DNA of 64,000 bases from Methylocapsa palsarum (GTDB lineage: Bacteria; Pseudomonadota; Alphaproteobacteria; Rhizobiales; Beijerinckiaceae). Under the pieces are notes generated by a model that had not been told where the DNA came from, searched no databases, and worked only from the letters and a program-made list of their open reading frames with translations. How positions within the stretch are numbered: the stretch's first letter is position 1; every line of letters begins with the position of its first letter. Positions 8,591 to 57,203 of the stretch are shown in pieces. The translations under genes were made by a program, and so were the position numbers. The stretch lies in the NCBI RefSeq assembly GCF_900114285.1, contig NZ_FOSN01000014.1, positions 1 through 64,000 of the forward strand. Reading direction: 5' to 3'.

Positions 8591-8775
8591 AGAGCATATT
8601 CCGATTGGATTGAATCAATCCAATCGACAAGAATATGCTCAAGCTTTTGACTCTGGAGCGATTTCTGATCGATCGCATGATTTCATGCGATCGGAAAGCG
8701 CTCGAGCATATTCCGATTGGATTGAATCCATCCAATCGAGAAGACTATGCTCAAGCCTTTGACTCTGGAGCGATT
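8591..8775. repeat. Dispersed palindromic repeat module, copy 1 (A-B-A-partial B)
   Basis: Palindrome A (8592-8640) has arms GAGCATATTC and GAATATGCTC around CGATTGGATT/AATCCAATCG. After AAGCTTTTGACTCTG comes palindrome B (8656-8703) with arms GATCGCATGA and TCATGCGATC. Palindrome A then repeats (8703-8751), followed by the same linker and a cut-off B. The same A-linker-B module occurs at 53551-53665. It resembles REP-type intergenic elements. The 362-base gap between the dehydrogenase and crtB contains nothing else that I recognise. Confidence 0.9.
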
Positions 8776-12910: not shown

Positions 12911-14455
12911 TCACGGCGAAACCGTTGGAAACGTCACCGCGATCGACCACGCCATCGCGATCGCGATCCCCAGCGCAGCAACGAGCGGGTGATTGGTGCG
13001 GCGGTAAACCCAGCCGCTGAACAATCCATAGACAGTGAAGAAAATCAAAATCACGGGCACGATAATGATCAGGAAGAAAAGCCTGTGCAGGTTTAGCGCG
13101 ATCGCGATCGCGAGCGAGGCCAGAAAGCAGATTTTGGTGAAGGCGTAGTTTCCTCGCGGCGCGGCTTCGCCCCGTGTCAGCCATTCGTCGGCCATGAAGT
13201 AAGGCGCGGTGCCGCAAAGGACGATGAGGATCAGTGGAAGCCGTTCGGCAATGGGCATGAAGGACGTCACGAAACGGTCGATCGGCAACCCGATCACGAA
13301 AATCGCGTAGCTCGCCACGGCGGCCACGCCAATTCCAAACGCCCGGCGCGAAATGCTGAACGACGCCGCGCGTTTAGAACCGTCCTCGAAATAATAAAGC
13401 CCCGCCGCGCTCAAAAATCCATAAACGCCAAAGTGGAGAGTCAAATAATCTCCAAGCAGAATCGGCATGAAGTCCGTCGGCAATTTCCACAGGACCAAAG
13501 GCGTGATGACGGCGGGCGCGAGCGCGACAGGAATGAGGCGCGGCCAAGGCAATGCTTGCCCGAGCGGAACGCTTGACGCTTGTGGGAGAAGCCCGCTCAG
13601 CGGCCGGGCGAGGGCGACCAGACCAGCGAAAAGCAGCCCGAGCCAGGGCCCCCGCGCGTCGATGAATCCGGATCGGTTGCGTCCAAAGGCTTCGTTAAGC
13701 CACGCCAAGGCCTCAGACAGGCTCTCCCGCGCGTAAAGCACCCCGATATGTTCGACGCCGGCTGACAGCGAGACGCGGCGCGCAGTTCCAAGTTTGAAAT
13801 CGCCATAGGTGACGCGTTCCCGCGCCGTCCCGTTGTTGGCCATGGCGGCGATCTTGAACGCTTCGTCCGTCAGCATCGAGGGTTCGAGCGCGCCGTCGAT
13901 CACGAGGAGGTTACGCGGCGCGTCCGCCGTGATCCCCCGCGAAAACAGGGACACGGCGATCGTGGTCTCGATATCTGGATGGTCCTCGGCGTAGCGAACC
14001 ACGATGTCGGACGCCATCGAATGGCCGATCAGCGCGATCTTTCCGTCGCCGAATTGTAGATGTCGCGCATAGGCGACAACGTCGCCAAGTTCGCCGATCA
14101 AGGCTTTGCCGCTCGCCTCGGGGTCCGCGATGCCGCCGGGGAGCGGCGCGGGATTTTGACCGTGGCCGAGAAAATCGAATGTCGCCACGATATAGCCGTT
14201 TCTTGCAAGCGTCAGCGCAAACGGCTGCATCAATTGTTGCGACCCCGCGAAGCCATGGGCGATGACGACGACGGGCGCAGCCTTGTCCGAAGGCTCCCTG
14301 TAGATCGTGATCGGGGTCGCGCCGACAGAGGCGGACGTGATCGAAAGTTCGCTTCTGGCGGCGAACAGATGCCAAAATCCCGCAACAACGCAACACACTG
14401 CGATTATCGCGACCAGCGGCGAAACAAACGGCCTGAGACGATCGGCGAGCGCCAA
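12911..14455 (-). CDS. Alpha/beta hydrolase fused to a polytopic membrane domain
   Basis: About 514 residues. After one N-terminal helix (VAIIAVCCVVAGFW) comes an alpha/beta-hydrolase domain with an oxyanion-hole HGFAGS and the nucleophile elbow GHSMAS. From about residue 270 the protein is mostly membrane helices, roughly seven to eight (for example WLGLLFAGLVALA and LPLILIVLCGTAPYF). I chose the TTG at 14455, which has GGAG five bases upstream. An ATG at 14575 would overlap the start of bchO. The gene interrupts bchD and bchO on the opposite strand. Function unknown; the hydrolase half may act on a lipid or ester at the membrane. I do not know a named homologue in other clusters. Confidence 0.72.
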   Translation of the reverse strand: MALADRLRPFVSPLVAIIAVCCVVAGFWHLFAARSELSITSASVGATPITIYREPSDKAAPVVVIAHGFAGSQQLMQPFALTLARNGYIVATFDFLGHGQNPAPLPGGIADPEASGKALIGELGDVVAYARHLQFGDGKIALIGHSMASDIVVRYAEDHPDIETTIAVSLFSRGITADAPRNLLVIDGALEPSMLTDEAFKIAAMANNGTARERVTYGDFKLGTARRVSLSAGVEHIGVLYARESLSEALAWLNEAFGRNRSGFIDARGPWLGLLFAGLVALARPLSGLLPQASSVPLGQALPWPRLIPVALAPAVITPLVLWKLPTDFMPILLGDYLTLHFGVYGFLSAAGLYYFEDGSKRAASFSISRRAFGIGVAAVASYAIFVIGLPIDRFVTSFMPIAERLPLILIVLCGTAPYFMADEWLTRGEAAPRGNYAFTKICFLASLAIAIALNLHRLFFLIIIVPVILIFFTVYGLFSGWVYRRTNHPLVAALGIAIAMAWSIAVTFPTVSP

Positions 14456-19398: not shown

Positions 19399-20415
19399 TT
19401 ACTTCCTGGCGGTTTGGGCCAGTTCCGGATAATCCTTGATCATGTTCAGCCCGAGGAGCGGCTTTGGCGCCCCCTGATGGCAGGTCGCGCAATTGATCTT
19501 CGGGACGTCTCCGTTAGGGCCGAGGCGGTTTTCCGGAAACGACGCTTTGAGCTTTTCCAGATAGTGATTGTTGAGGTCGCGCACCATCCTGATGCCGTAC
19601 CAGGCCGTAGCGCGCTGGGGAGTGCTTTGATCCCAGGCGGTAAACGACCGGCTGTTGTGGCAATGAGTGCAGTTGACCCCAAGCCCCTGGGACATGCTCA
19701 TCATGAGACCATAGGTCAATTCCGCCTGCTTCACAGACGCTCCCTGTTTATCCTCCTCGGGGAGAGCGGTCTTCGAAACGACGCGAATCTCGTTTGCGTA
19801 AGACAACAGCGGCGTATACGGATCGTTGGGAAGCGACGTTAGGCCGACGTTCGCCGCTGGCGCGTTTTGTCCGGCGCGATTGCCGAGGCTTCCCTGCGCC
19901 GTTTCGGGACTTGTGAACCAGATGTTCGCAGGGACCGGCTGGCCACGATGACATGTGTAACATGTAACGCCGGTCGTCGTGACATGGGTCTTCCAGTCGG
20001 CATTGATATGCTGGGTCATCTGGATCATAGTCCGGGCGATCACTTTGGGGTAGAGCGCGTCGGAAGCGAGGTTTTCGGGGTTGTGGCAATAGGCGCAGCC
20101 CTGTTCCGGCGACACCCATTGCGTGATTGCGGTCATCAGGCGAATGAACTCGTTTTCGTCGAGATTGCCCAGAACCTGAACGTTTTGATAAACTTGCGAC
20201 GCCGGTTGCCCGCTGGGGGCGACTGGGTCGACTTCGTCCGGCGGCTTGTTCGCCTCCGCCAGCGCAGCCAAGGTCTTTGGACTGTCGACCTGCTCCATGC
20301 CGAGGCCGCGATAGCCGATCTGTTTGGTCTGCGTCTGCGATTCGTAGCAACCTGCGAGCAGCAGGGAGGGGCAAAGCGCCAACGCCAAGAGTGAAGGTCG
20401 GATGATGCGTTTCAC
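19399..20415 (-). CDS. pufC: Photosynthetic reaction centre tetraheme cytochrome c subunit
   Basis: About 338 residues from the GTG at 20415 (VKRIIRPSLLALALC). The signal peptide carries the lipobox LLLAGC, so the protein is a periplasmic lipoprotein, as known for this subunit. Four heme c sites are present: CAYCH, CYTCH, CTHCH and CATCH, three with an upstream Met ligand region typical of the family. It re-reduces the special pair. It follows pufM by 8 bases and closes the puf operon. A longer frame from 20511 overlaps pufM and is not supported. Confidence 0.97.
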   Translation of the reverse strand: MKRIIRPSLLALALCPSLLLAGCYESQTQTKQIGYRGLGMEQVDSPKTLAALAEANKPPDEVDPVAPSGQPASQVYQNVQVLGNLDENEFIRLMTAITQWVSPEQGCAYCHNPENLASDALYPKVIARTMIQMTQHINADWKTHVTTTGVTCYTCHRGQPVPANIWFTSPETAQGSLGNRAGQNAPAANVGLTSLPNDPYTPLLSYANEIRVVSKTALPEEDKQGASVKQAELTYGLMMSMSQGLGVNCTHCHNSRSFTAWDQSTPQRATAWYGIRMVRDLNNHYLEKLKASFPENRLGPNGDVPKINCATCHQGAPKPLLGLNMIKDYPELAQTARK

Positions 20416-20423
20416 GAGAGCAC

Positions 20424-21392
20424 CTATTGCGACAAGGCGGGATCCAGGATCGGAGGATAGACTGACGGGTAGGATGGCGCGACGCCGTGCTTCACCGCCC
20501 AGAGATACCAATTATCGACGACAGTTCCGGTCAGCAGAATTCCGATGCCGCCGACGAGGGGGCACAGAACGGCGAACCACCACGCCCAGCGATGGATCGA
20601 TTCCATCGTCGCGTTGAAGCCCATGGTCCAGCGCCAGAACAGCGCCGCGCGCTCGGCGGCCGTGCCGCGATCAGCGGATTGTTCGATTTCACGTTCTCCG
20701 CCGAATCGGCTGACCGCCAAAATGGTCGCCGCATGCATGGCGAAGAGCAATGTCGATCCATAGAGAAACACGATCGAGAGCATGTGGAACGGATTGTAAA
20801 ACAGGTTGCCGTAGCGGATCGAGAGCGCCGCGGTCCAGTCGAGATGGGGGAATATTCCAAACGGCACACCTTCACCGAAGTTTCCCATCAGGAGCGGACG
20901 GATGAAGCCAAGGACGAGATAGAGCCAGATGGCGGCGGCGAAGGCCCACGCCACATGGGTGCCCATGCCGAGCGCGATGGCCCGGCGGTAGACCCTGACC
21001 CACCAGATGAGGATCGAGGTCGTGAGGAAGAAGCCGGCCATTAGCCACCATCCGCCTTCGTTGAGCGGCGGAAAAATGCTGATGCCGTATTTCGGATTCG
21101 GCGGCTCAAGCGCGAGCCAGAAGAACTGCCGGACGAACTGGACGGGATCCCAGTTCACCGACGCAAACATATTGAGCCCGATGATCTCGATTGCGATGAA
21201 CCCGCACATCAAGGCGGCGATGCCGCTCCAGCCAAGATAGATCGGTCCGATCTGCGCGTCGCCGATCTTTCCGATCCAATACGAGAAAAACGGCTTGCCT
21301 TCGCGCTCTCTGGCGCTTTCGGCGGTGGCGACGCCGAGTTCCGGCGCCGAGCGAACCTGAATCTGGGTGAAAATATTCTGGTAATCTGACAT
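20424..21392 (-). CDS. pufM: Photosynthetic reaction centre M subunit
   Basis: A 322-residue five-helix type-II reaction-centre protein. The typical start ([15 protein letters not shown]) and the bacteriochlorophyll/iron-binding His segments are present: [26 protein letters not shown] near 200, then [23 protein letters not shown] near 264. The C-terminal part ([12 protein letters not shown]) is also normal, and length is as expected. It pairs with PufL to hold the special pair, accessory pigments and quinones. It lies between pufL and pufC on one transcript. Confidence 0.98.
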
Positions 21393-21410: not shown

Positions 21411-22235
21411 CTAGCGCCAAATGGGGAGGTTCAGCCACCAGCCCCACCACTCCGGCCAGCCGCGTGTCCAGAGAGGGCCGCTGATGATGATGCAGACGGC
21501 GCTCCAGAATGAGGCCGAGAGCGCAAGGAAAAGCCCCAGCCGATGAATGCCGAGCGTCCCGATGGAATAGCCGATGATGTCACGAAAATAGGTGTTCTCG
21601 TGCTCCGCGGTCTTTGCGGACTCGCCCCTCTGGGGATTGATCGCGGAGAGAACAAGGCCTCCGTGCAGCGCCAGGGCGAAAGTCGTGGTGAAGAAGAACG
21701 ACACCGCGATCATGTGCGCGGGATTGTAGTGGAAATGTAGATATTGATAGCCGACGTTCGACACCCAATCGAGATGACTTATGATTCCGTAGGGAAAGCC
21801 ATGTCCCCAGGCTCCGAGCCACAGCGGACGGATCACGACCAGGGATATGTACGCGAGAATCGCGAATCCGTAGGCGAAGGGAACGTGGTAGCCTATGCCG
21901 AGCTTCCGGCAGATCTCGACCTCGCGGAGCGCCCACGAAATGAAAGATCCGATGGCGCATACGGTGATGATCTGCCACAGACCGCCTTCCTTGAGGGGCG
22001 CCAGGGCCAAGCCGTAGGAAAGATCCGGTGGCGCGATGTTGATTTGCCACAAGTTCCATGTCGGCCCGATTGCGGCTCCATAGACGATCAGCGCCGTGCC
22101 AAGAGCCGCGAAAAAGATCGTTGTGACCCCGAAAAAGCCGACGAAGAATGGCCCGACCCAGAAGTCGAACAGGTCGCCTCCGATCAAAGTCCCGCCGCGA
22201 ACGCGATATTTTCTTTCGAAATCCAGCATCGCCAT
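21411..22235 (-). CDS. pufL: Photosynthetic reaction centre L subunit
   Basis: A 274-residue five-helix reaction-centre protein starting [33 protein letters not shown], the standard N-terminus. Pigment and iron ligands are visible: [22 protein letters not shown] near 168-190 and [10 protein letters not shown] near 226. It is 126 bases downstream of pufA, across a hairpin-rich spacer. The pufM start follows 18 bases after its stop. Confidence 0.98.
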
Positions 22236-22361: not shown

Positions 22362-22574
22362 TTAACCCAGTCGGCTGAAGTCCGGAGCGGGGAGCACAGG
22401 CAGAATCAGGCTCGTGGTCTTGACGCGTGAGTGTTTGCCGCCTTCCAGCCAGTTAAAGCGGTCGGTGCTGAGCAGGATGAAGTGAATCACCAGCGCCAGG
22501 ATAAACAGGAAGGTGAACAGGGCGACCAGCGCCCTGCGCGGATCGAAGATGAGCCAAATTTTGTAAAATTCCAT
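22362..22574 (-). CDS. pufA: Light-harvesting 1 alpha subunit
   Basis: A 70-residue LH1 alpha polypeptide with one membrane helix. The family core [42 protein letters not shown] has the bacteriochlorophyll-ligating His at about 31. The tail after residue 45 is longer than in Rhodobacter and ends in a hydrophobic [11 protein letters not shown] stretch, perhaps removed after translation. It follows pufB by 9 bases. Confidence 0.97.
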
Positions 22575-22583
22575 AGCGGCCTC

Positions 22584-22814
22584 CTAAACCACGAAGTTTA
22601 AGACGTTCATCGCAACGTCGTGAGCGTTGTCGAGGAGCGATGAATAGCCGTTTGGTCCTGGAATCCACGGACGCCACATCCAAACGAGAATGTGCGCCAC
22701 AACGGCGATCGCGGTGAAAATTAGGAAGCTCGTCACGAATATTTTGTGAAACTCTCGAGCTTCCCCGTCTGTCAGCCCCGAGAGGGAGCTTCCGGGATCT
22801 CTTTCTAAAGCCAT
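22584..22814 (-). CDS. pufB: Light-harvesting 1 beta subunit
   Basis: A 76-residue LH1 beta polypeptide. The family pattern is [17 protein letters not shown] followed by one helix ending [17 protein letters not shown], in which the His ligates bacteriochlorophyll. The C-terminal extension after WRPWIPG (about 25 residues) is longer than in model species and includes a second weakly hydrophobic end. GGAG precedes the ATG. Confidence 0.96.
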
Positions 22815-43781: not shown

Positions 43782-43782
<1 letters not shown>

Positions 43783-44480
43783 TGTCAAATCTTTCCTATC
43801 TGCAACGGCGCAGCCAGATTGAGACCTATTTCGACCGCACGGCGGTTGAGGCATGGGCCCGCCTGACCTCCGATGTTCCCGTCGGGCGGATCCGCGCAAC
43901 CGTGCGGGCGGGGCGGGAAGACATGCGCCAAACGATCCTGAACTGGCTTCCATCAGACCTCCGCGGCTGCCGCCTGCTCGACGCCGGATGTGGGACCGGA
44001 GCGCTCGCCGTGGCGGCCGCCGAACGCGGCGCCGATGTTGTTGCGGCGGACCTTTCGCCTCAACTCATTGCATTGGCGCGCGGGCGGGCGCCGCGCGAGT
44101 TCTCCTGCGGCCGGATCGAATTTCGTTCCGGCGACATGCTGGATCCCTCGCTCGGTCATTTCGACCACATCGTCTGTATGGATTCGCTCATCCACTATCG
44201 TGTCGACGATATGGTGGAAAGTCTTTCCAAGCTCGCGGTCCGCGCAAGGCGATCTATCGTTTTCACTTTCGCTCCGAGGACGCCGATGTTGTCTCTGATG
44301 CATGGCGTCGGTCGTCTTTTCCCGCGCGCCGATCGCGCGCCGGCCATCGAGCCGGTGGGCGAAGCCGCCTTGGCGAAAGCGCTTGATGCATCGCCCGGGC
44401 TCAAAAGCTGGAAGCCGGCGCGCGAAAGACGGGTCGTCAGCGGCTTTTACATGTCTCAGGCGTTAGAGCTCCGTCCATGA
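43782..44480 (+). CDS. bchM: Magnesium protoporphyrin IX methyltransferase
   Basis: A 232-residue SAM-dependent methyltransferase. It starts at GTG 43782 overlapping the bchL stop. The SAM motif is LLDAGCGTGALAVAAAERGADV near 66, then a characteristic MDSLIHYRVDDM near 135. It esterifies the ring-C propionate of Mg-protoporphyrin, making the substrate for AcsF. Its stop overlaps the lhaA start. Confidence 0.97.
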
Positions 44481-45910
44481 TCAGGATCAACGAAAAACTG
44501 GCGCAGGGCTGGACCCGTCTGGGTCCGAGATTCCTCCCCTTTGCAGACGCGGCGACAATCGAACTGCCTCTGACAAGACTGCTGCGACTTTCGCTATTCC
44601 AGGTCACCGTCGGCATGTCTCTGGTGCTGCTGATCGGAACGCTCAACCGGGTCATGATCGTAGAGCTCGGGGTTTCCGCGTGGCTGGTCGCGCTCATGGT
44701 TTCGCTGCCGCTCGTCTTTGCGCCCTTCCGGGCGTTGATCGGTTTTCGTTCGGACAACCACCGTTCTGTGCTCGGTTGGCGGCGTGCGCCCTATATCTGG
44801 TTCGGGACGCTGATCCAGTTCGGCGGTCTGGCGATCATGCCCTTCGCCCTGATTATCCTGTCGGGAGACACCAACGGCCCGCTTTGGGTCGGTGATGCGG
44901 CCGCGGCCTTGTCTTTTCTGCTGATAGGCGCGGGGCTTCATACGACGCAGACGGTGGGGCTTGCCCTCGCGACGGATCTGGCTCCGGAACATGCGCGCCC
45001 GCGCGTTGTCGCGCTTTTGTGCATGATGCTGCTGGCCGGTATGGTGACGAGCGCATTGGCGTTTGGATTTCTGCTCGCTAATTTCAGCGAATTACGATTG
45101 ATCCAGGTTATCCAGGGCTCGGCTGTCATCACCGTGGCGCTGAACGTCGTCGCGCTCTGGAAACAGGAGCCTCGAAATCCATCGCGGACCCTAGCTCAGG
45201 CGTCCGAACCGACGTTTAGGGGCGCGTGGCGGGATTATCTGAACCAGGGCGAACGCTCCAGGCGCCGGCTTGTCCTTATTGGCGTTGGAACCGCCGCGTT
45301 CAGCATGGAGGATATTCTCCTCGAACCCTATGGCGGCCAGATCCTGCACCTTTCCGTGGGCGCCACCACGGCTTTGACGGCCACGCTGGCGCTCGGCAGC
45401 ATCGCCGGATTGAGCCTTGCGGCCCGCAGGCTCAATCGCGGCGCGGACCCCTATCGCGTATCGGCGTTCGGGGCTTTGGTGGGGATCGCCGCTTTTACGT
45501 CTCTCATATTCGCCGCGCCGCTGGAATCGGGTTTGCTTTTTGGCCTCGGAACCGGCCTGATCGGTTTTGGCGCCGGGCTTTTCGCTCATGGCACGCTCAC
45601 GGCCTCAATGAACGAGACCCGGAGAGGCGACGCAGGGATCGCGATTGGCGCCTGGGGGGCTGTGCAGGCGTCGGCGGCAGGCCTCTCGATCGCTCTTGGA
45701 GGCGCCATCAGCGACGGCGCGTCCGCGCTTGCGACACAGGGCCTTCTCGGACCCGGGCTGAATGGTCCGGCCACAGGTTATGTCATCGTCTACATGCTTG
45801 AAATTGCGTTGCTGTTCGTCACCCTCGCGGTGGCGGGGCCTCTCGTGCGCCAGTTGAGCGCCGATTGGACCGGACCGATCACGAAACAGGAATTCGAAAC
45901 AGCGCACTAA
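44477..45910 (+). CDS. lhaA: LH1 assembly protein LhaA (BCD-family MFS)
   Basis: A 477-residue, about 12-helix protein of the PucC/LhaA family. Signature segments are LLRLSLFQVTVGMSLVLLIGTLNRVMIVELGV, FRALIGFRSDNHRSVLGWRRAPYIWFGTLIQFGG and LAGMVTSALAFGFLL. It supports LH1 assembly, perhaps by delivering pigment. It is intact, unlike its paralogue at 17-18 kb. puhA normally follows directly; here puhB does, after 25 bases. Confidence 0.95.
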   Translation: MIRINEKLAQGWTRLGPRFLPFADAATIELPLTRLLRLSLFQVTVGMSLVLLIGTLNRVMIVELGVSAWLVALMVSLPLVFAPFRALIGFRSDNHRSVLGWRRAPYIWFGTLIQFGGLAIMPFALIILSGDTNGPLWVGDAAAALSFLLIGAGLHTTQTVGLALATDLAPEHARPRVVALLCMMLLAGMVTSALAFGFLLANFSELRLIQVIQGSAVITVALNVVALWKQEPRNPSRTLAQASEPTFRGAWRDYLNQGERSRRRLVLIGVGTAAFSMEDILLEPYGGQILHLSVGATTALTATLALGSIAGLSLAARRLNRGADPYRVSAFGALVGIAAFTSLIFAAPLESGLLFGLGTGLIGFGAGLFAHGTLTASMNETRRGDAGIAIGAWGAVQASAAGLSIALGGAISDGASALATQGLLGPGLNGPATGYVIVYMLEIALLFVTLAVAGPLVRQLSADWTGPITKQEFETAH

Positions 45911-45935
45911 CTGGACTATCAGGGAGGCTACAGCT

Positions 45936-46631
45936 GTGATTGCCGAAGATTTCGATTTCGAACCAGTTCGCGGCCTTCCCGGCCATCTGCCGCCCGGAGA
46001 AACCCTGCTGTGGCAGGGTTCGCCCTCCTGGCGCGCCGTCGCCCGCACGGTTTACCGCCTCCCGATGGTTGCGGGATATTTCGGAGTTCTGATCGCTTTC
46101 GGAACTCTCTCGGCGCTGCTGGAAGGACAAAGCATCCGGTCAGCGGTCCAACCGGCCCTGTGGCTCGCGCCGCTCGGCATGCTGTCCATCGGCATATTGA
46201 CGCTCATGGCCTGGCTCACCGAACGCACCACGATCTACTCTCTCACCAGCCGCCGCGTCATCATGCGGTTTGGGCTCGCCCTGCCCATCACGCTTAATCT
46301 GCCGTTTTCGCAAATTGGCGGGGCGGCGCTGAAGATTCATCGGGACGGCTCCGGCGATATTCCGCTGGACCTCGCGTCAAAGGATCATCTCGCCTACCTG
46401 GTGCTCTGGCCACATGCAAGGCCGTGGCGCTTTTCGAGGCCCCAGCCGATGCTCCGGTGCATTCCGGACGCGGACAAGGCCGCGCAAATTCTCGCGGAAG
46501 CGATGACATTGGCGTTCCCCGCGTCCGCCGCGAACGCACGGAGAGTCACAGATGTCGCGCCCCAGCCCGCTGCGCAACATAGCGCCGCCGCCGGCAAGGA
46601 GCGCAGACCCAGCATGGCCGCGGCGTCGTAG
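45936..46631 (+). CDS. puhB: Photosynthetic complex assembly protein PuhB
   Basis: A 231-residue PH-like membrane protein. The opening FEPVRGLPGHLPPGETLLWQGSPSWRAVARTVYR, two helices near 50 and 80, then ERTTIYSLTSRRVIMRFGLALP are typical of PuhB. It helps reaction-centre assembly. The GTG start at 45936 follows AGGGAGG. The C-terminal about 30 residues are Ala-rich and variable. It directly follows lhaA, without puhA. Confidence 0.95.
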   Translation: MIAEDFDFEPVRGLPGHLPPGETLLWQGSPSWRAVARTVYRLPMVAGYFGVLIAFGTLSALLEGQSIRSAVQPALWLAPLGMLSIGILTLMAWLTERTTIYSLTSRRVIMRFGLALPITLNLPFSQIGGAALKIHRDGSGDIPLDLASKDHLAYLVLWPHARPWRFSRPQPMLRCIPDADKAAQILAEAMTLAFPASAANARRVTDVAPQPAAQHSAAAGKERRPSMAAAS

Positions 46632-46642
46632 GGAGCAGGCGG

Positions 46643-47107
46643 ATGAGCCATCAATTGGTTGCGAGGTCGTTTCCACGGACGCCCCTTATCGGCGCCGCTC
46701 TTCTTGTCGCCTCGTCGTTGTGTCTGGTCGCCTTTGCGCGCCTGACCGATATCGGCGTCATGCATACGGCCCTCGAGCGTCCGGCGGCCGCGCGCGATCT
46801 TCGATTCGAGGACAGTCCGAACGGTGCCGTGATCGTGTATGACGCCAGTACAGGCCTTGAGATTGACCGGCTCGAGCCCGGTTCTGGCGGTTTCGTCCGG
46901 GGCATCCTGCGGAGCTTCGCCCGCGGTCGTCGCGCGATCCAGCAATCGGCGGGCGTTCAGGCGCCCTTCCGGTTGAGTCTGAGCGCAAATGGCAGGCTGG
47001 CCATTCAGGACATCATGACCCGAACGATTATTGAACTTGATGCGTTCGGACCGACCAACGCCGAGGCGTTCGCTCGCTTCTTGACCGCGCAGGAGTCTGC
47101 GAAATGA
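46643..47107 (+). CDS. puhC: Photosynthetic complex assembly protein PuhC
   Basis: A 154-residue protein with one N-terminal membrane helix (PLIGAALLVASSLCLVAFARL). The periplasmic domain carries the family pattern RDLRFEDSPNGAVIVYDASTG and a late LSLSANGRLAIQDIMTRTIIELDAFGPTNAEAFARFL. PuhC is needed for reaction-centre/LH1 organisation in Rhodobacter. Its stop overlaps the next start as ATGA. Confidence 0.93.
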   Translation: MSHQLVARSFPRTPLIGAALLVASSLCLVAFARLTDIGVMHTALERPAAARDLRFEDSPNGAVIVYDASTGLEIDRLEPGSGGFVRGILRSFARGRRAIQQSAGVQAPFRLSLSANGRLAIQDIMTRTIIELDAFGPTNAEAFARFLTAQESAK

Positions 47108-47409
47108 ACGTCATCAGTCTGTTGAGCGCCGGCCAGATCGAAGTACCCTGCACCGTGGACGTGGAGCACACTTCCGACAGTCTTCACGCCCATGTAGAGC
47201 TGGCGTTCGATCTTGAACTACGGCCGGGAGACGAGGTGACCGTCCAAGGCGATTCCATCGACGTCCCGTTCGGCGAAAAGGCGCTGCTAAGCCGCCGGGC
47301 CATCATCACGCGCGCCGGCTGGCTGAAGCGCGTGTGGATCCGATTGAGTTCGAGGCTGGAACTGACCGAACTCTATGAAGTGAGTTTTTCCTCGGGGAGG
47401 AAATTATGA
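47104..47409 (+). CDS. Conserved small photosynthesis-cluster protein of unknown function
   Basis: A 101-residue soluble protein lying between puhC and acsF with ATGA-type overlaps on both sides, so it is locked into the operon. No helix for the membrane is seen. A beta-rich middle ([29 protein letters not shown]) precedes a basic stretch ([34 protein letters not shown]). An unnamed gene of similar size occupies this place in some other alphaproteobacterial clusters. A role linked to AcsF or reaction-centre assembly is inferred from position only. Confidence 0.8.
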
Positions 47410-48467
47410 GCGCCGTGCGAGCCGCCGAACCGAATCTGACGACCCAAATGGCGCAAGCCAACACTGTCCTCAGTCCCCGATTCTATACTACTAATTTCGC
47501 GGAGATCGATCGGATCGACGTCGGCCCCGTGCGCGCCGAGTGGGATGAGTTGATGGCCGAAATGCGACGCGATCCCAACAAGGGGCATTTTGTGCGGACC
47601 GACGAGTTCAAATCGGATCTTTCACATCTTCCGGAGGCGCTCCGCAAGGAGTTCATCGATTTCCTCGTAAGCTCGGTGACGGCTGAGTTTTCGGGCTGCG
47701 TTCTCTATTCAGAACTCAAAAAGCGGGCGAAAACTCAGGACATGCGCGATCTGTTCGGCTACATGAGTCGTGATGAGGCGCGCCATGCCGGATTTATCAA
47801 CGATACGTTGAAGGATTTTGGAATCGGCGTGGACCTCGGATTTCTCACCAAGACCAAGAAATACACTTTTTTCAAGCCGAAATTCATTTTCTACGCCACT
47901 TATCTGTCCGAGAAGATCGGCTATGCGCGCTACATCACGATCTATCGAGAACTCGAAAGGCATCCGGAGCGTCGCATCCATCCGATCTTCAAATGGTTCC
48001 ACGAATGGTGCAACGATGAATTCCGTCACGGCGAAGCCTTCGCGCTGCTGATGCGGGCAAATCCTCGATTGCTCAGCGGCATCAATCGATATTGGGTGAA
48101 ATTCTTCCTGATCGCCGTTTACGCGACAATGTTTGTGCGTGACCATGCGCGACCCGAGTTTCATAAGGCGCTCGGCGTGAGCCCAACGGATTATGATTTC
48201 ACCGTGTTCCGGATCACGTCGGAAATCTCCAGACAGGTCTTTCCCCTGACGCTCGATATCGATCATCCGGGATTTGTCGCGGGACTTGAACGGTTGCGCA
48301 TCAATGCCGGGCGGATTGCGGAGGCCGAGAGTCAGGGTGGAATTTCAGGCCGCTTGAAGAAAGCGGCCTGGGTCTTTGCGTCCGCGCTTGCTTTCGCCCG
48401 ACTTTATATGATCCCGGCGAAGCGGAACGAAGCGCCAAAGCAGATTCGTCTGTCGCCGGCCTGGTAG
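47406..48467 (+). CDS. acsF: Mg-protoporphyrin IX monomethyl ester oxidative cyclase (aerobic)
   Basis: A 353-residue diiron enzyme. Iron ligands are in [27 protein letters not shown] and [12 protein letters not shown]. It forms ring E using oxygen. No bchE (the oxygen-independent cyclase) is present in the window, which fits aerobic or microaerobic pigment synthesis. It has a strong GGAGG before the ATG and follows the small unknown gene by coupling. Confidence 0.97.
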
Positions 48468-48483
48468 ATTGGAGCAAGCGTTG

Positions 48484-49332
48484 ATGTTGTTGCTTTATGG
48501 TCCGCCCATCGGTTACGCCCTGTTCCTGTGGTGGTTCAGCACGGGGGTTATTATAGTCCTTGATGGTTTGCCGAGGCGGACCTATTCGTGGACTATGGGC
48601 GGCGCGACGTTGGTCATGTTGGGATCGCTCTATGGTCTTTTTATGAGCAGCACAGACACCAGCGTAACCGGGGCCTACATCGCCTTCACGTGCGCCCTGT
48701 TGGTCTGGGGCTGGAATGAAATCAGTTTTCTCATGGGCTTCATCAGCGGGCCTCGGCGCGCGCCTTGTCCCGCCGGGGCCTCAGGGTGGCGACGGTTCCG
48801 CTACGCCGCGCAGACCCTCCTTTATCACGAGCTCGTCATAGCAAGCATTGCGGCCCTGATTATCGCGATTACAGCGAATGGCGCAAACCAGTTCGGAACC
48901 TGGACCTTCATCATTCTTTGGTTTATGCGTCTTAGCGCAAAACTGAACGTGTTTTTTGGCGTGCCTAATTTGACGGAAGAACTCCTTCCCGACCACATGA
49001 AATATCTGGAGAGCTATTTCCGCAGACGACCGATGAACCTCTTCTTTCCGGTCTCGATCAGTGTGTCGATGGTCATTGTCGTCGGGATCGTGCGGTCCGC
49101 CGCGGCGTCTGCGTCTCTATTTCAGGCGTCGGGGCACGCCTTTCTCGCCACGCTGATGTTTCTGGCGATCCTTGAACACTGGTTCCTGGTTCTGCCGCTT
49201 TCTTCGATCCGTCTCTGGAGCTGGAGTCTTCGAACTGATCGGTCTGGCCGCCGCGTGAAGGCGATCTCCGCAAATGAAAAAATCCCCGGCGGATTGCCCG
49301 CCGACATCATGGATGCGAATGCGAGTACGTGA
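48484..49332 (+). CDS. puhE: Photosynthetic complex assembly protein PuhE (DUF3623)
   Basis: About 282 residues with roughly seven helices. The family pattern [23 protein letters not shown] starts near 18, with [15 protein letters not shown] and [32 protein letters not shown] further on. It occupies the standard place between acsF and hemA. I prefer ATG 48484, with GGAG nine bases upstream. The frame also allows TTG 48469. Loss of PuhE alters pigment and complex levels in Rhodobacter. Confidence 0.93.
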
Positions 49333-53505: not shown

Positions 53506-53550
53506 AGGGATCGACGGAAGAATTCGGGAGCATGCGTTCACATCCCCGTC

Positions 53551-53665
53551 TGGAGCATATTCCGATCGGATTGAATCCATCCAATCGAGAAGACAATACT
53601 CAAGCTTTTGACTCTGGAGCGATTTCTGATCGATCGCATGAAGTCATGCGATCGGAAAGCGCTCC
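53551..53665. repeat. Dispersed palindromic repeat module, copy 2 (A-B)
   Basis: Palindrome A (53552-53600), the linker AAGCTTTTGACTCTG and palindrome B (53616-53663) match the module at 8591-8703 with only a few base changes, mostly in the loops and one arm of A. The order and orientation are the same. The two copies flank the photosynthesis genes. Confidence 0.9.
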
Positions 53666-54225: not shown

Positions 54226-54894
54226 TCAATAATCGTCCAGCCATCCTTTGTTCAGAGCGTAGCGAAGGAGCTGCACCCGGCTTTCGAAGCCAAGCTTATC
54301 CATGCCGCGCGCCTTATAGGTTTCGACTGTCTTTACGCCCAGACGAAGTTCCGCGGCGACCGCCTTTTGACTGTGCCCCGCCGCGGTCAATCTGAGCACC
54401 TCAACCTCGCGTTCGCTGAGGTCAGCTTCGAGGAAGGGTCCGTCCGCCTTCAGCGGACCGCCGCCGACAACTTTCCCGGCGATCGCGGGGTCTAGGTAAA
54501 CGCCTCCGGCGGCGACGGCTCGAATGGCCCGCACCAGCTCTTCGCTCGCCGAACGTTTCAGGACATAGCCCGCGATCCCCAACACCAGCAGCTGGCGCAG
54601 ATATCCTTTGTCTTCGTGGACAGTCAGCGCGAGAATCTTGGTCTCGGGGCTATTGTCCCGAAGTTGCTCGGCGACTTTCGTGCCATTCAGGCCCGGCATC
54701 GAAATGTCCAAGATAACAATGTCCGGCTTCAGTTCGGTCGCCAGTTTCAGGGCGTTGCGCCCGTCGCAGGCGTCGCCGACGATCGTCATCCCCTCCGCCG
54801 CGCCGATGATCGCCTTGACCCCGGCGAGAACGATCGGATGATCGTCCGCGAGGAATACGCGAAGGGGCTTTGGAAGAGCGCAAGACTCACTCAT
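54226..54894 (-). CDS. NarL/FixJ-type response regulator
   Basis: A 222-residue protein. The receiver domain carries the phospho-Asp in DIVILDISMPG near 56, acidic residues in FLADDHP, and Thr/Lys at TVHED and GYVLKRSA. The LuxR-type DNA-binding domain (LSEREVEVLRLTAAGHSQKAVAAELRLGVKTVETYKARGMDKLG) is at about 157-205. Its start overlaps the bacteriophytochrome stop by four bases, so it is surely the cognate regulator. Its targets are not shown; photosynthesis genes are one reasonable guess. Confidence 0.95.
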   Translation of the reverse strand: MSESCALPKPLRVFLADDHPIVLAGVKAIIGAAEGMTIVGDACDGRNALKLATELKPDIVILDISMPGLNGTKVAEQLRDNSPETKILALTVHEDKGYLRQLLVLGIAGYVLKRSASEELVRAIRAVAAGGVYLDPAIAGKVVGGGPLKADGPFLEADLSEREVEVLRLTAAGHSQKAVAAELRLGVKTVETYKARGMDKLGFESRVQLLRYALNKGWLDDY

Positions 54895-57203
54895 CGTAGC
54901 GGAACGTGGATGATGAGCGTGGTGCCGAAGCCCGGGGCGGCCTCAATTTCCAGCTTGCCGCCGACAAGCGCAAGGCGCTCACGCATCCCAAGCAGTCCGA
55001 GGCGGGACGAAGGAGCCAGTTTTTCGTCGACCTCATCGGATCGGAATCCTTTTCCATCGTCTTCTACGATCAATATGACCTCGTCGAGAGTCGCCTCCAG
55101 GATCACGCCGACCTTCTTCGCCCCGGCATGTCTGGCGACATTTGTAATAGCTTCCTGAAGAATCCTGTACAATGTCGTTTCGATGATGGGAGGCAATCGC
55201 CGGTCGCTCAAGGCCAAATGCAGATCGAATTGCAAATTTGAGCTCTGGGCGCACTCGTCGATAAATTGCTGGACAGCCGTTTGGAGGCCAAGGTCGTCGA
55301 GCGAGGTCGGGCGAATTTCCCAAGCGAGACGATTTACTTCTTGTCCCACGTCGGCGGTCAAACTTTTCAATTGGTCGACCCGGCGCTTCAGATCCGAAGG
55401 CGCGTCGTTGCGCCCCAGGCCGTCGAGATTCCACTGCATGATGGTCAGATATTGCCCAAGGCTGTCGTGTAATTCGCGTGCGATTCTCTGACGTTCAGCT
55501 TCCTGGTTGATGACGGTGCTGCGCAGAACCTGAGACAGTTCCGCTTCCAGAACCGCGCGGCGGTCCGATTCAATCTCGAGCTGACGCCCGGTCACCTCCC
55601 ATTGCCGGATTCGCTCGTCCAGGGCTGCGAGAAGCGCTTCCTGGCGCAATTTTGCCGCCTCCCGCTCACGGGCGAGCTGATCGACCCGGCGAAGTACGAT
55701 TTCGAGCAGAGAGACACGCAAGGTTTGGGCGATCTGGATCGCGACTTTTTCCCATGGCTTGGAGCGCAGCCGCACCTCCTGCCTCCAGGCCTCGAAGCTT
55801 TTTCGTGGTGAGAGGCGTACGCCGTCCGGTTCGCATTCCACCGACTTGTCCGGATTTCCCGCCCAGGTCACGGTGTCTATAATCTCGCGGCGAAACCAGA
55901 TGACATAATCTCGCGGTGATTTTGAAACCGAAAGAGCGATTATCCCGCTTGCGACGTCGGCGAAATCGACGGCCGGCCGATAGATGAGAGGGAGCGCGTC
56001 TGTATGAAAAACGCCTTCGGCGGCCGTTTCATTCAGCCAATCGACGAGTCCTCCCGCTTGCGTCGCATTGGGGGTGCGGCCGAGGCTCGTAAAATTGCCG
56101 TCAAGCCAGAGCCCAAGACCGTCTGCGTCGATGATCTCCAGGAGATTCGGCCGCAACCGAGCCAGGCTGTCGGCGAGTTCCTCCTCGCCGGAAAGCTGGG
56201 TCAACAAATCGTCCTGAATGGCTTTCGAACGGGTTCGATCCTGAAGTTCGTCCGCCGTGATTTTGGTTTCAAGCAGAAAGGACGCCATCTGACTGAACAA
56301 TTCGAGGGCGACTCTCAGGCGATGGGGCACATAGCGCGGCCTTCTTGAATGACAGGCGATCAGGCCCCATAGTTTGCCATCCAGAATGATCGAGAGCGAC
56401 ATCGTCGCGGCGACGCTCATATTGGCCAGATATTCGAGGTGGATCGGGGACACGCTCCGCAGCATGCTCTGGCTGAGATCGAGCGGGCGCTCAAGGCGCG
56501 CGATGGGCGGCGACAGCGGAGCAGGCTGGTAGGTGGTGTCCGCGATCAGGCGAATCCAATTGCGCATGTAGAGTTCGCGCGCCTGTTTCGGGATGTCGGA
56601 CGCCGGATAATGCAGACCAAGAAAAGGCGAGAGGTCGGAATCTTTCGCTTCGGCGTCGACAGCGCCGCTGCCGTCAGGCAAAAATCGATAGACCATCACC
56701 CGGTCAAATTTTGAGGCGGCGCGAACCTCCTCCGCCACCAACTTGCAGAATTTTTCTACAGACGCCGCCTGCTGAATGTTGCGCACCATCGTTTGAACAA
56801 GCGCGAGGGGATCATCGAGGCAATCTTCCCAGATCGGCTCCAGTTCAAGAATCAGCAGCCCGTCGCTGAGATGTATGGTCGCGTCGACGTCGCCGTTGCC
56901 GCCCTTCGCCTTCATATGGAAAGCGTGAAGCGGACGGAGCATGGAGCTTTCCGTCGCGACGAGTTCGCGAAGGCGGTCAGCATGAGTCTGGGGCAACCAA
57001 TCCGCCGCCGCCCGGCCGATCAACTCGCCCGGCGCCAGCCCGAGCAATTGATCCGTTGCGCCGCCGGCCTGGACCACGTCGAGTTTTTCGGGATCGAGCG
57101 CCAGCAGGGCGCCATGCGGCTGGATTGACCCAGGAATGTGGATCGGCTCACGGTCGCAATTGGTCAGATCTGCGGCGCCGAACGCAGGAACCTCGCCGCT
57201 CAT
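54891..57203 (-). CDS. bphP: Bacteriophytochrome sensor histidine kinase (NarL-partner type)
   Basis: 770 residues: PAS (about 1-120) with the biliverdin Cys16 in LTNCDREPIHIPGSIQPHG, and GAF (about 140-320) with SPFLGLHYPASDIPKQAR. PHY (about 330-510) has the tongue motif SPRKSFEAW. A coiled linker follows, then HisKA_3 with QRIARELHDSLGQ near 580 and HATPase with DDGKGF near 725. It should be a red/far-red switch. The output is a DesK/NarX-type kinase rather than the common HisKA type, or the PpsR-binding output of Bradyrhizobium BphP. It is operonic with its regulator; heme oxygenase lies 119 bases upstream. Confidence 0.96.
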   Translation of the reverse strand: MSGEVPAFGAADLTNCDREPIHIPGSIQPHGALLALDPEKLDVVQAGGATDQLLGLAPGELIGRAAADWLPQTHADRLRELVATESSMLRPLHAFHMKAKGGNGDVDATIHLSDGLLILELEPIWEDCLDDPLALVQTMVRNIQQAASVEKFCKLVAEEVRAASKFDRVMVYRFLPDGSGAVDAEAKDSDLSPFLGLHYPASDIPKQARELYMRNWIRLIADTTYQPAPLSPPIARLERPLDLSQSMLRSVSPIHLEYLANMSVAATMSLSIILDGKLWGLIACHSRRPRYVPHRLRVALELFSQMASFLLETKITADELQDRTRSKAIQDDLLTQLSGEEELADSLARLRPNLLEIIDADGLGLWLDGNFTSLGRTPNATQAGGLVDWLNETAAEGVFHTDALPLIYRPAVDFADVASGIIALSVSKSPRDYVIWFRREIIDTVTWAGNPDKSVECEPDGVRLSPRKSFEAWRQEVRLRSKPWEKVAIQIAQTLRVSLLEIVLRRVDQLAREREAAKLRQEALLAALDERIRQWEVTGRQLEIESDRRAVLEAELSQVLRSTVINQEAERQRIARELHDSLGQYLTIMQWNLDGLGRNDAPSDLKRRVDQLKSLTADVGQEVNRLAWEIRPTSLDDLGLQTAVQQFIDECAQSSNLQFDLHLALSDRRLPPIIETTLYRILQEAITNVARHAGAKKVGVILEATLDEVILIVEDDGKGFRSDEVDEKLAPSSRLGLLGMRERLALVGGKLEIEAAPGFGTTLIIHVPLR

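Follow-up and report, generated by a model that had tools for sequence, protein, structure and literature searches.

The H subunit of the photosynthetic reaction center caps the cytoplasmic side of the complex, stabilizes the quinone sites, and supplies a proton path to QB. In purple bacteria it is reported to be essential for a functional reaction center, with work on Rsp. rubrum cited to the effect that H is essential for the reaction center and not for LH1 (PMC10432797), and reaction center assembly is assumed to begin with H (PMC10214105). The gene for H, puhA, is reported to be conditionally essential when Rba. sphaeroides grows by photosynthesis (PMC5513736). Departures from the usual subunit have nevertheless been described. 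In Gemmatimonas, puhA is split into puhA1 and puhA2, and the structures contain RC-Ht and RC-Hc (PMC10214105, PMC12817894). Roseiflexus castenholzii is described as having no puhA at all, with protein h replacing the H helix, which makes the globular H domain less than universal (PMC10432797).

The gene order around puhA has also been surveyed. All of ten AAP clusters compared show bchFNBHLM-lhaA-puhABC, and one has photosynthesis genes outside the cluster as well (PMC3176799). Loktanella vestfoldensis SKA53 (PMC3176799) and Rhodovulum sulfidophilum W4 (PMC3738892) have photosynthesis genes outside one cluster, with no statement seen there that puhA alone had moved. M. silvestris is named in a review as a pufLM carrier (PMC7660913). 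For Methylocapsa palsarum NE2T, the genome announcement lists puhA among photosynthesis genes that are mostly clustered, describes the cells as nonpigmented and leaves expression of these genes open; it mentions neither a gap between lhaA and puhB nor a shortened puhA (PMC5473262).

Here, we compare the photosynthesis genes of M. palsarum with those of its relatives, starting from a window of 64,000 nucleotides (contig NZ_FOSN01000014.1, positions 1 to 64,000). Identities are to the genes in the same place in two other genomes of the genus, G003 and G004, given where needed by their loci L006 and L007. The names bchM, acsF, and puhE are presumptive and assigned by position.

19399..20511, minus strand: pufC (PF02276, 474.9 bits)
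20424..21392, minus strand: pufM (PF00124, 356.7 bits)
21411..22235, minus strand: pufL (PF00124, 327 bits)
22362..22574, minus strand: LH1 alpha, recognized by eye from the translation only
22584..22814, minus strand: LH1 beta, recognized by eye from the translation only
43782..44480, plus strand: upstream neighbor, presumably bchM (66% identity at L006, 69% at L007)
44477..45910, plus strand: lhaA, 477 amino acids (PF03209 PUCC, 462.6 bits; 74 to 75% identity to lhaA of G003 and G004)
45911..45935, plus strand: lhaA-puhB gap, 25 bp, the slot of puhA in relatives, containing the puhB ribosome-binding site
45936..46631, plus strand: puhB (NF040894 puhB_PGC, 240.7 bits, cut-off 110)
46643..47107, plus strand: puhC (TIGR03054, 149.8 bits, cut-off 55)
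47104..47409, plus strand: short conserved ORF of 101 amino acids between puhC and acsF (49% identity at L006, 50% at L007; without a match in Pfam or NCBIfam at E values up to 0.001)
47406..48467, plus strand: presumably acsF, collinear with G003 and G004 (77 to 78% identity)
48469..49332, plus strand: presumably puhE, collinear with G003 and G004 (55 to 57% identity)

Elsewhere in the window, a bacteriophytochrome-like histidine kinase (54891-57203; PAS_2, GAF, PHY, HisKA_3, and HATPase_c) adjoins an ORF at 54226-54894 that resembles a response regulator by eye.

We observe that lhaA ends at 45910 and that puhB starts at 45936 with a GTG, preceded within the 25-base gap by AGGGAGG, as part of a good ribosome-binding site. 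Coordinates and family models thus agree with the first-pass annotation, which had noted this short gap with a normal ribosome-binding site and had further described PuhA as absent from the window and pufL, pufM, and pufC as complete. Both of these descriptions hold: neither PF03967 from Pfam nor A1, an alignment built from 16 PuhA sequences and searched at E values up to 10, gave a match in the window, and the three puf genes are complete, with the family matches listed above. A remnant of puhA in the gap was also considered and rejected, the 25 bp showing nothing on inspection beyond the ribosome-binding site.

Elsewhere, the order lhaA-puhA-puhB is the usual one. In a set of 110 PuhA loci from other genomes, gathered through PuhA and with a few genomes present twice, puhB lies directly 3' of puhA in 109, overlapping it by a few bases in 4 of these (L028, L029, L050, and L123), and the remaining locus (L097) is cut by a contig edge. 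Directly 5' of puhA we find lhaA in 104 of the 110; two loci reach a contig edge, and in four (L058, L115, L116, and L123) no lhaA was found upstream. Phototrophy is patchy within the genus itself, where 3 of 15 genomes (G000 to G014) encode PuhA and 12 give no PuhA match. G003 and G004, the other two PuhA-bearing members, share the arrangement bchM-lhaA-puhA-puhB-puhC-ORF-acsF-puhE with a full-length puhA. In their clusters, as in those of Methylocystis L43 and H62, the genes flanking lhaA and puhB are the same as in M. palsarum, yet a full-length puhA sits between the two, where the M. palsarum slot has none. A relocation common to relatives, raised earlier as the case in which close relatives would always carry puhA at another locus, is therefore rejected, since both G003 and G004, like the wider set of loci, keep the canonical order. 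The loss of puhA from the lhaA-puhB slot is lineage-specific, a designation that follows from both other PuhA-bearing genomes of the genus having retained lhaA-puhA-puhB.

The first-pass annotation had proposed that puhA had either moved elsewhere or that the reaction center works without it. A PuhA profile search of the whole M. palsarum genome (4,105,299 bases in 78 contigs) supports the first half of this alternative and leaves the second without support, as the genome carries a single puhA on another contig, at C40:201536-202213 on the plus strand. PF03967 matches this one gene, in two pieces, and nothing else in the genome, in agreement with the A1 alignment search. Its open frame, 230 codons without a stop, begins with a GTG at C40:201521 and ends at 202213 (L005:11522-12214). 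We place the start at the ATG of position 201536, which has GTGGAG upstream at a normal spacing and lies close to where relatives begin; this gives a protein of 225 residues. Residue numbers below are nonetheless counted from the GTG. Judged by eye, the genes next to puhA on C40 encode a phasin-like coiled-coil protein and an HU-like protein, and those farther out include lipase-like genes and genes for metal efflux and phosphate transport; none of them was recognized as a photosynthesis gene.

A search for the corresponding empty site compared 16 genes (puhA and 15 neighbors) with five regions of 13 to 20 kb from other genus members, and only the HU-like gene, by which those regions had been picked, was matched in them. 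Next to puhA lies a dispersed repeat, roughly 116 bp long (L005:12289-12407), whose 22-nt inverted arms are 77% complementary. The same repeat occurs in the window at 8592-8775 and 53550-53664, and at least 47 matches were found in the genome (40 of 306 candidates scored; the window copies are not among the matches listed). No Rfam match was obtained in L005 or in the window, the repeat included. Since the repeat is dispersed through the genome, its presence beside puhA says little about how the gene moved. Among plasmid records, we found 10 with a PuhA resembling that of M. palsarum, at below 60% identity over 94 to 100% of its length, with matched spans of 717 to 771 bases.

The protein encoded on C40 is a PuhA by its family matches, and an unusually short one. 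It scores 299.7 bits against TIGR01150, the puhA equivalog (cut-off 200), in two stretches, and PF03967 (PRCH, 134 positions) matches it in two pieces, positions 2-47 and 90-134, that lie only eight residues apart and leave positions 48-89 unmatched. The first piece (residues 10-55) and the alignment place the N-terminal membrane helix and the REGYPL anchor, and PF05239 identifies the PRC-barrel globular domain (40.2 bits, cut-off 21.2), so that the protein shares with the PuhA family helix, anchor, and barrel above curated cut-offs. In comparison with the usual PuhA, about 32 residues are absent from the linker between the membrane helix and the globular domain, and the gene lies outside the lhaA-puhB slot. 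From REGYP to GVGP the linker comprises 33 residues, against 62 to 70 in 100 other measurable proteins; a further 10 proteins fell outside the pattern, and a full linker is visible in their sequences. A looser count had given 46 for one row, and under the stricter pattern no value falls between 33 and 62. Counted from the aligned start, the other 110 PuhA proteins are 246 to 303 residues long.

The missing stretch is normally conserved. A full linker with a PK segment, which is a usual feature of the family and is not demanded by the PuhA family models, is absent from M. palsarum PuhA. Of 111 proteins, 102 carry the loose motif P.{1,3}K.[FYL] in this stretch, and the nine misses consist of M. 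palsarum, four proteins with a proline-lysine pair visible by eye, and four variants. We further matched PF03967 in four samples, with hits in 43 of 149 genomes of the family, 75 of 397 of the order, 28 of 385 of the class, and 32 of 398 of the phylum. Together these are 153 different genomes: M. palsarum, 150 others above the cut-off, and two partial matches below it (G796 and G1041). In all 150 other above-cut-off genomes the match is in one piece, from position 10 or earlier to position 132 or later, and as the samples were drawn evenly from larger groups, the short form may still occur elsewhere. No mention of a short PuhA linker was found in the open-licence literature searched. Our main finding is this short-linker PuhA, a variant form of an already described subunit that we observe in a single genome.

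The split H of Gemmatimonas (PDB 7o0u) is interrupted in the same linker, with M. palsarum residues 14-54 corresponding to Ht 4-44 and residues 66-229 to Hc 13-180. There, however, two genes encode two chains and linker residues are kept (23 after the Ht match and 12 before the Hc match), whereas in M. palsarum one gene with one uninterrupted frame encodes one chain from which linker residues are deleted. Aligned to chain 8wdu_H, M. palsarum residues 54 and 59 correspond to residues 48 and 88, so that about 5 to 8 residues, reaching up to roughly 28 Å, would have to bridge the distance between those two positions. Unlike the reaction center of Roseiflexus castenholzii, M. palsarum keeps both the helix and the globular domain.

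Outside the deletion, the alignment has 42 columns with at least 95% conservation across the other 53 rows, and M. palsarum PuhA keeps every one of them. Of the 54 PuhA rows, 31 have lost no conserved column, 15 have lost one, 6 two, and 2 three. Residues W142, D144, E147, and R151 are retained, the last three being invariant in the A1 alignment of 16 PuhAs. We take D144, E147, and R151 to be the equivalents of D170, E173, and R177 of Rba. sphaeroides H, and presume that these D, E, and R residues of the globular domain serve the proton path. The partner subunits look ordinary by their sequences: among the relatives compared, PufL keeps 124 and PufM 123 of 125 invariant columns, counted over 18 and 19 other rows that were chosen from 28 fetched non-window loci by length and an identity cut, with copies removed.

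We consider it probable that M. palsarum has a reaction center whose H has a short linker and is encoded apart from the cluster. In this lineage, puhA is gone from the lhaA-puhB slot, and the sole copy, standing alone on C40, encodes an H of about 225 residues with its membrane helix, REGYPL anchor, whole PRC-barrel domain, and a linker of half the usual length. Most likely, this H would complete an ordinary L-M-C-H reaction center in which the short linker would cross the cytoplasmic face more directly, with the quinone sites still covered, and protons still led to QB, by the globular domain. Since H in Gemmatimonas is split into membrane and cytoplasmic parts, an unbroken linker is not needed there; with the chain broken in the linker in that case and residues gone from it in ours, the simplest model would be an ordinary reaction center with a shortcut linker. 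Judged from the gene and its partners, the short H may be expressed, assembled, and functional. We put at a little short of an even chance the further claim that a natural H lacking the conserved linker segment, the product of a lone gene away from the puh operon, forms a working reaction center of the purple-bacterial type.

How the gene came to C40 is a matter of origin. A foreign H gene could have replaced the native puhA, with the cluster copy lost afterward, a history that we consider unlikely, though compatible with the short-linker model. In a tree of LhaA plus PuhB, M. palsarum groups with G003 and G004 (SH-aLRT 99), and the corresponding PuhA grouping appears in 0% of 200 bootstrap trees (54 rows, with the columns missing in M. 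palsarum PuhA excluded and 5 of the remaining 230 dropped). Against eight outgroups, PuhA identity to G003 is 0.55 and to the outgroups 0.50 to 0.59; most of these outgroups, however, had been found through their likeness to M. palsarum PuhA, a source of bias. With 28 loci of the family selected independently of such likeness, the PuhA of G003 comes out closest, at 0.543, the loci averaging 0.493 and reaching at most 0.540. PuhA is also not alone in its behavior, as BchL from several of the eight outgroups is at least as close as that of G003. PuhB alone recovers the genus grouping with support of only 9, and a 224-column part of LhaA does so with 59. In an AU test, a common origin was not rejected (P = 0.171). 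A control group with support in the core tree was neither recovered nor rejected (P = 0.162), and a second control group was recovered. We lean tentatively towards a move of the native puhA.

Early gene decay is a rather unlikely reading, in which an obligate methanotroph is losing phototrophy and the deletion has already inactivated H. It would fit the description of the strain as nonpigmented (PMC5473262), the 12 of 15 genus genomes without a PuhA match, and the removal of a normally conserved stretch. It would also fit a somewhat greater divergence of PuhA, which is not shared by LhaA and PuhB. Against 28 family loci picked with the Pfam profile, mean PuhA identity is 0.493 for M. palsarum and 0.527 for G003, and M. 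palsarum PuhA is equal or closer than that of G003 in 8 of the 28, compared with 20 of 26 for LhaA and 22 of 28 for PuhB. Against the eight outgroups it is equal or closer in six, a count biased by most of them having been found with M. palsarum PuhA as the query. Decay is opposed, however, by the intact frame, by the full retention of the conserved columns outside the deletion, and by the intact L, M, and C. PuhA thus looks to be under constraint and evolving somewhat faster, and a recent loss of function may have occurred.

A working reaction center without H, as in Roseiflexus, would agree with a cluster that lacks puhA but is very improbable and is rejected here, because puhA is present on C40, because in Roseiflexus puhA is reported to be missing altogether and a protein h to take the position of the H helix (PMC10432797), and because of the conditional essentiality of puhA in Rba. 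sphaeroides (PMC5513736). An assembly artifact, in which the draft is wrong and the true puhA lies elsewhere or is full length, could be suspected in a genome of 78 contigs, yet it is highly unlikely given that the junction and the C40 gene lie far from the ends of their contigs, which measure at least 64 kb and 239,211 bp, respectively, that the shortened gene is in frame, and that coverage is given as 339.9x (PMC5473262).

The regulatory setting of the gene counts against the reaction center with a short-linker H, as do the nonpigmented cells, the normal conservation of the lost stretch, and the somewhat greater divergence of PuhA. Usual cluster neighbors would supply cotranscription, whereas puhA on C40 has a stretch of about 400 bp upstream. 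No sigma-70-type match was found ahead of puhA on its strand. The motif TGTN12ACA, which we take to be a PpsR/CrtJ-type site, does not occur close to the gene either, the only site in the 19.9 kb around it lying nearly 8 kb upstream. In the window, three such sites are present, at 14061, 28275, and 30453.

The case of M. palsarum illustrates that the very stable order lhaA-puhA-puhB can break while the remaining cluster stays in place. Being known from one genome, the short-linker PuhA has a limited reach. Even so, a natural H without the normally conserved linker stretch, next to ordinary L and M subunits, offers a ready-made test of the role of that stretch. If the short H works, the linker segment would be dispensable, and the production of H would be decoupled from the operon.
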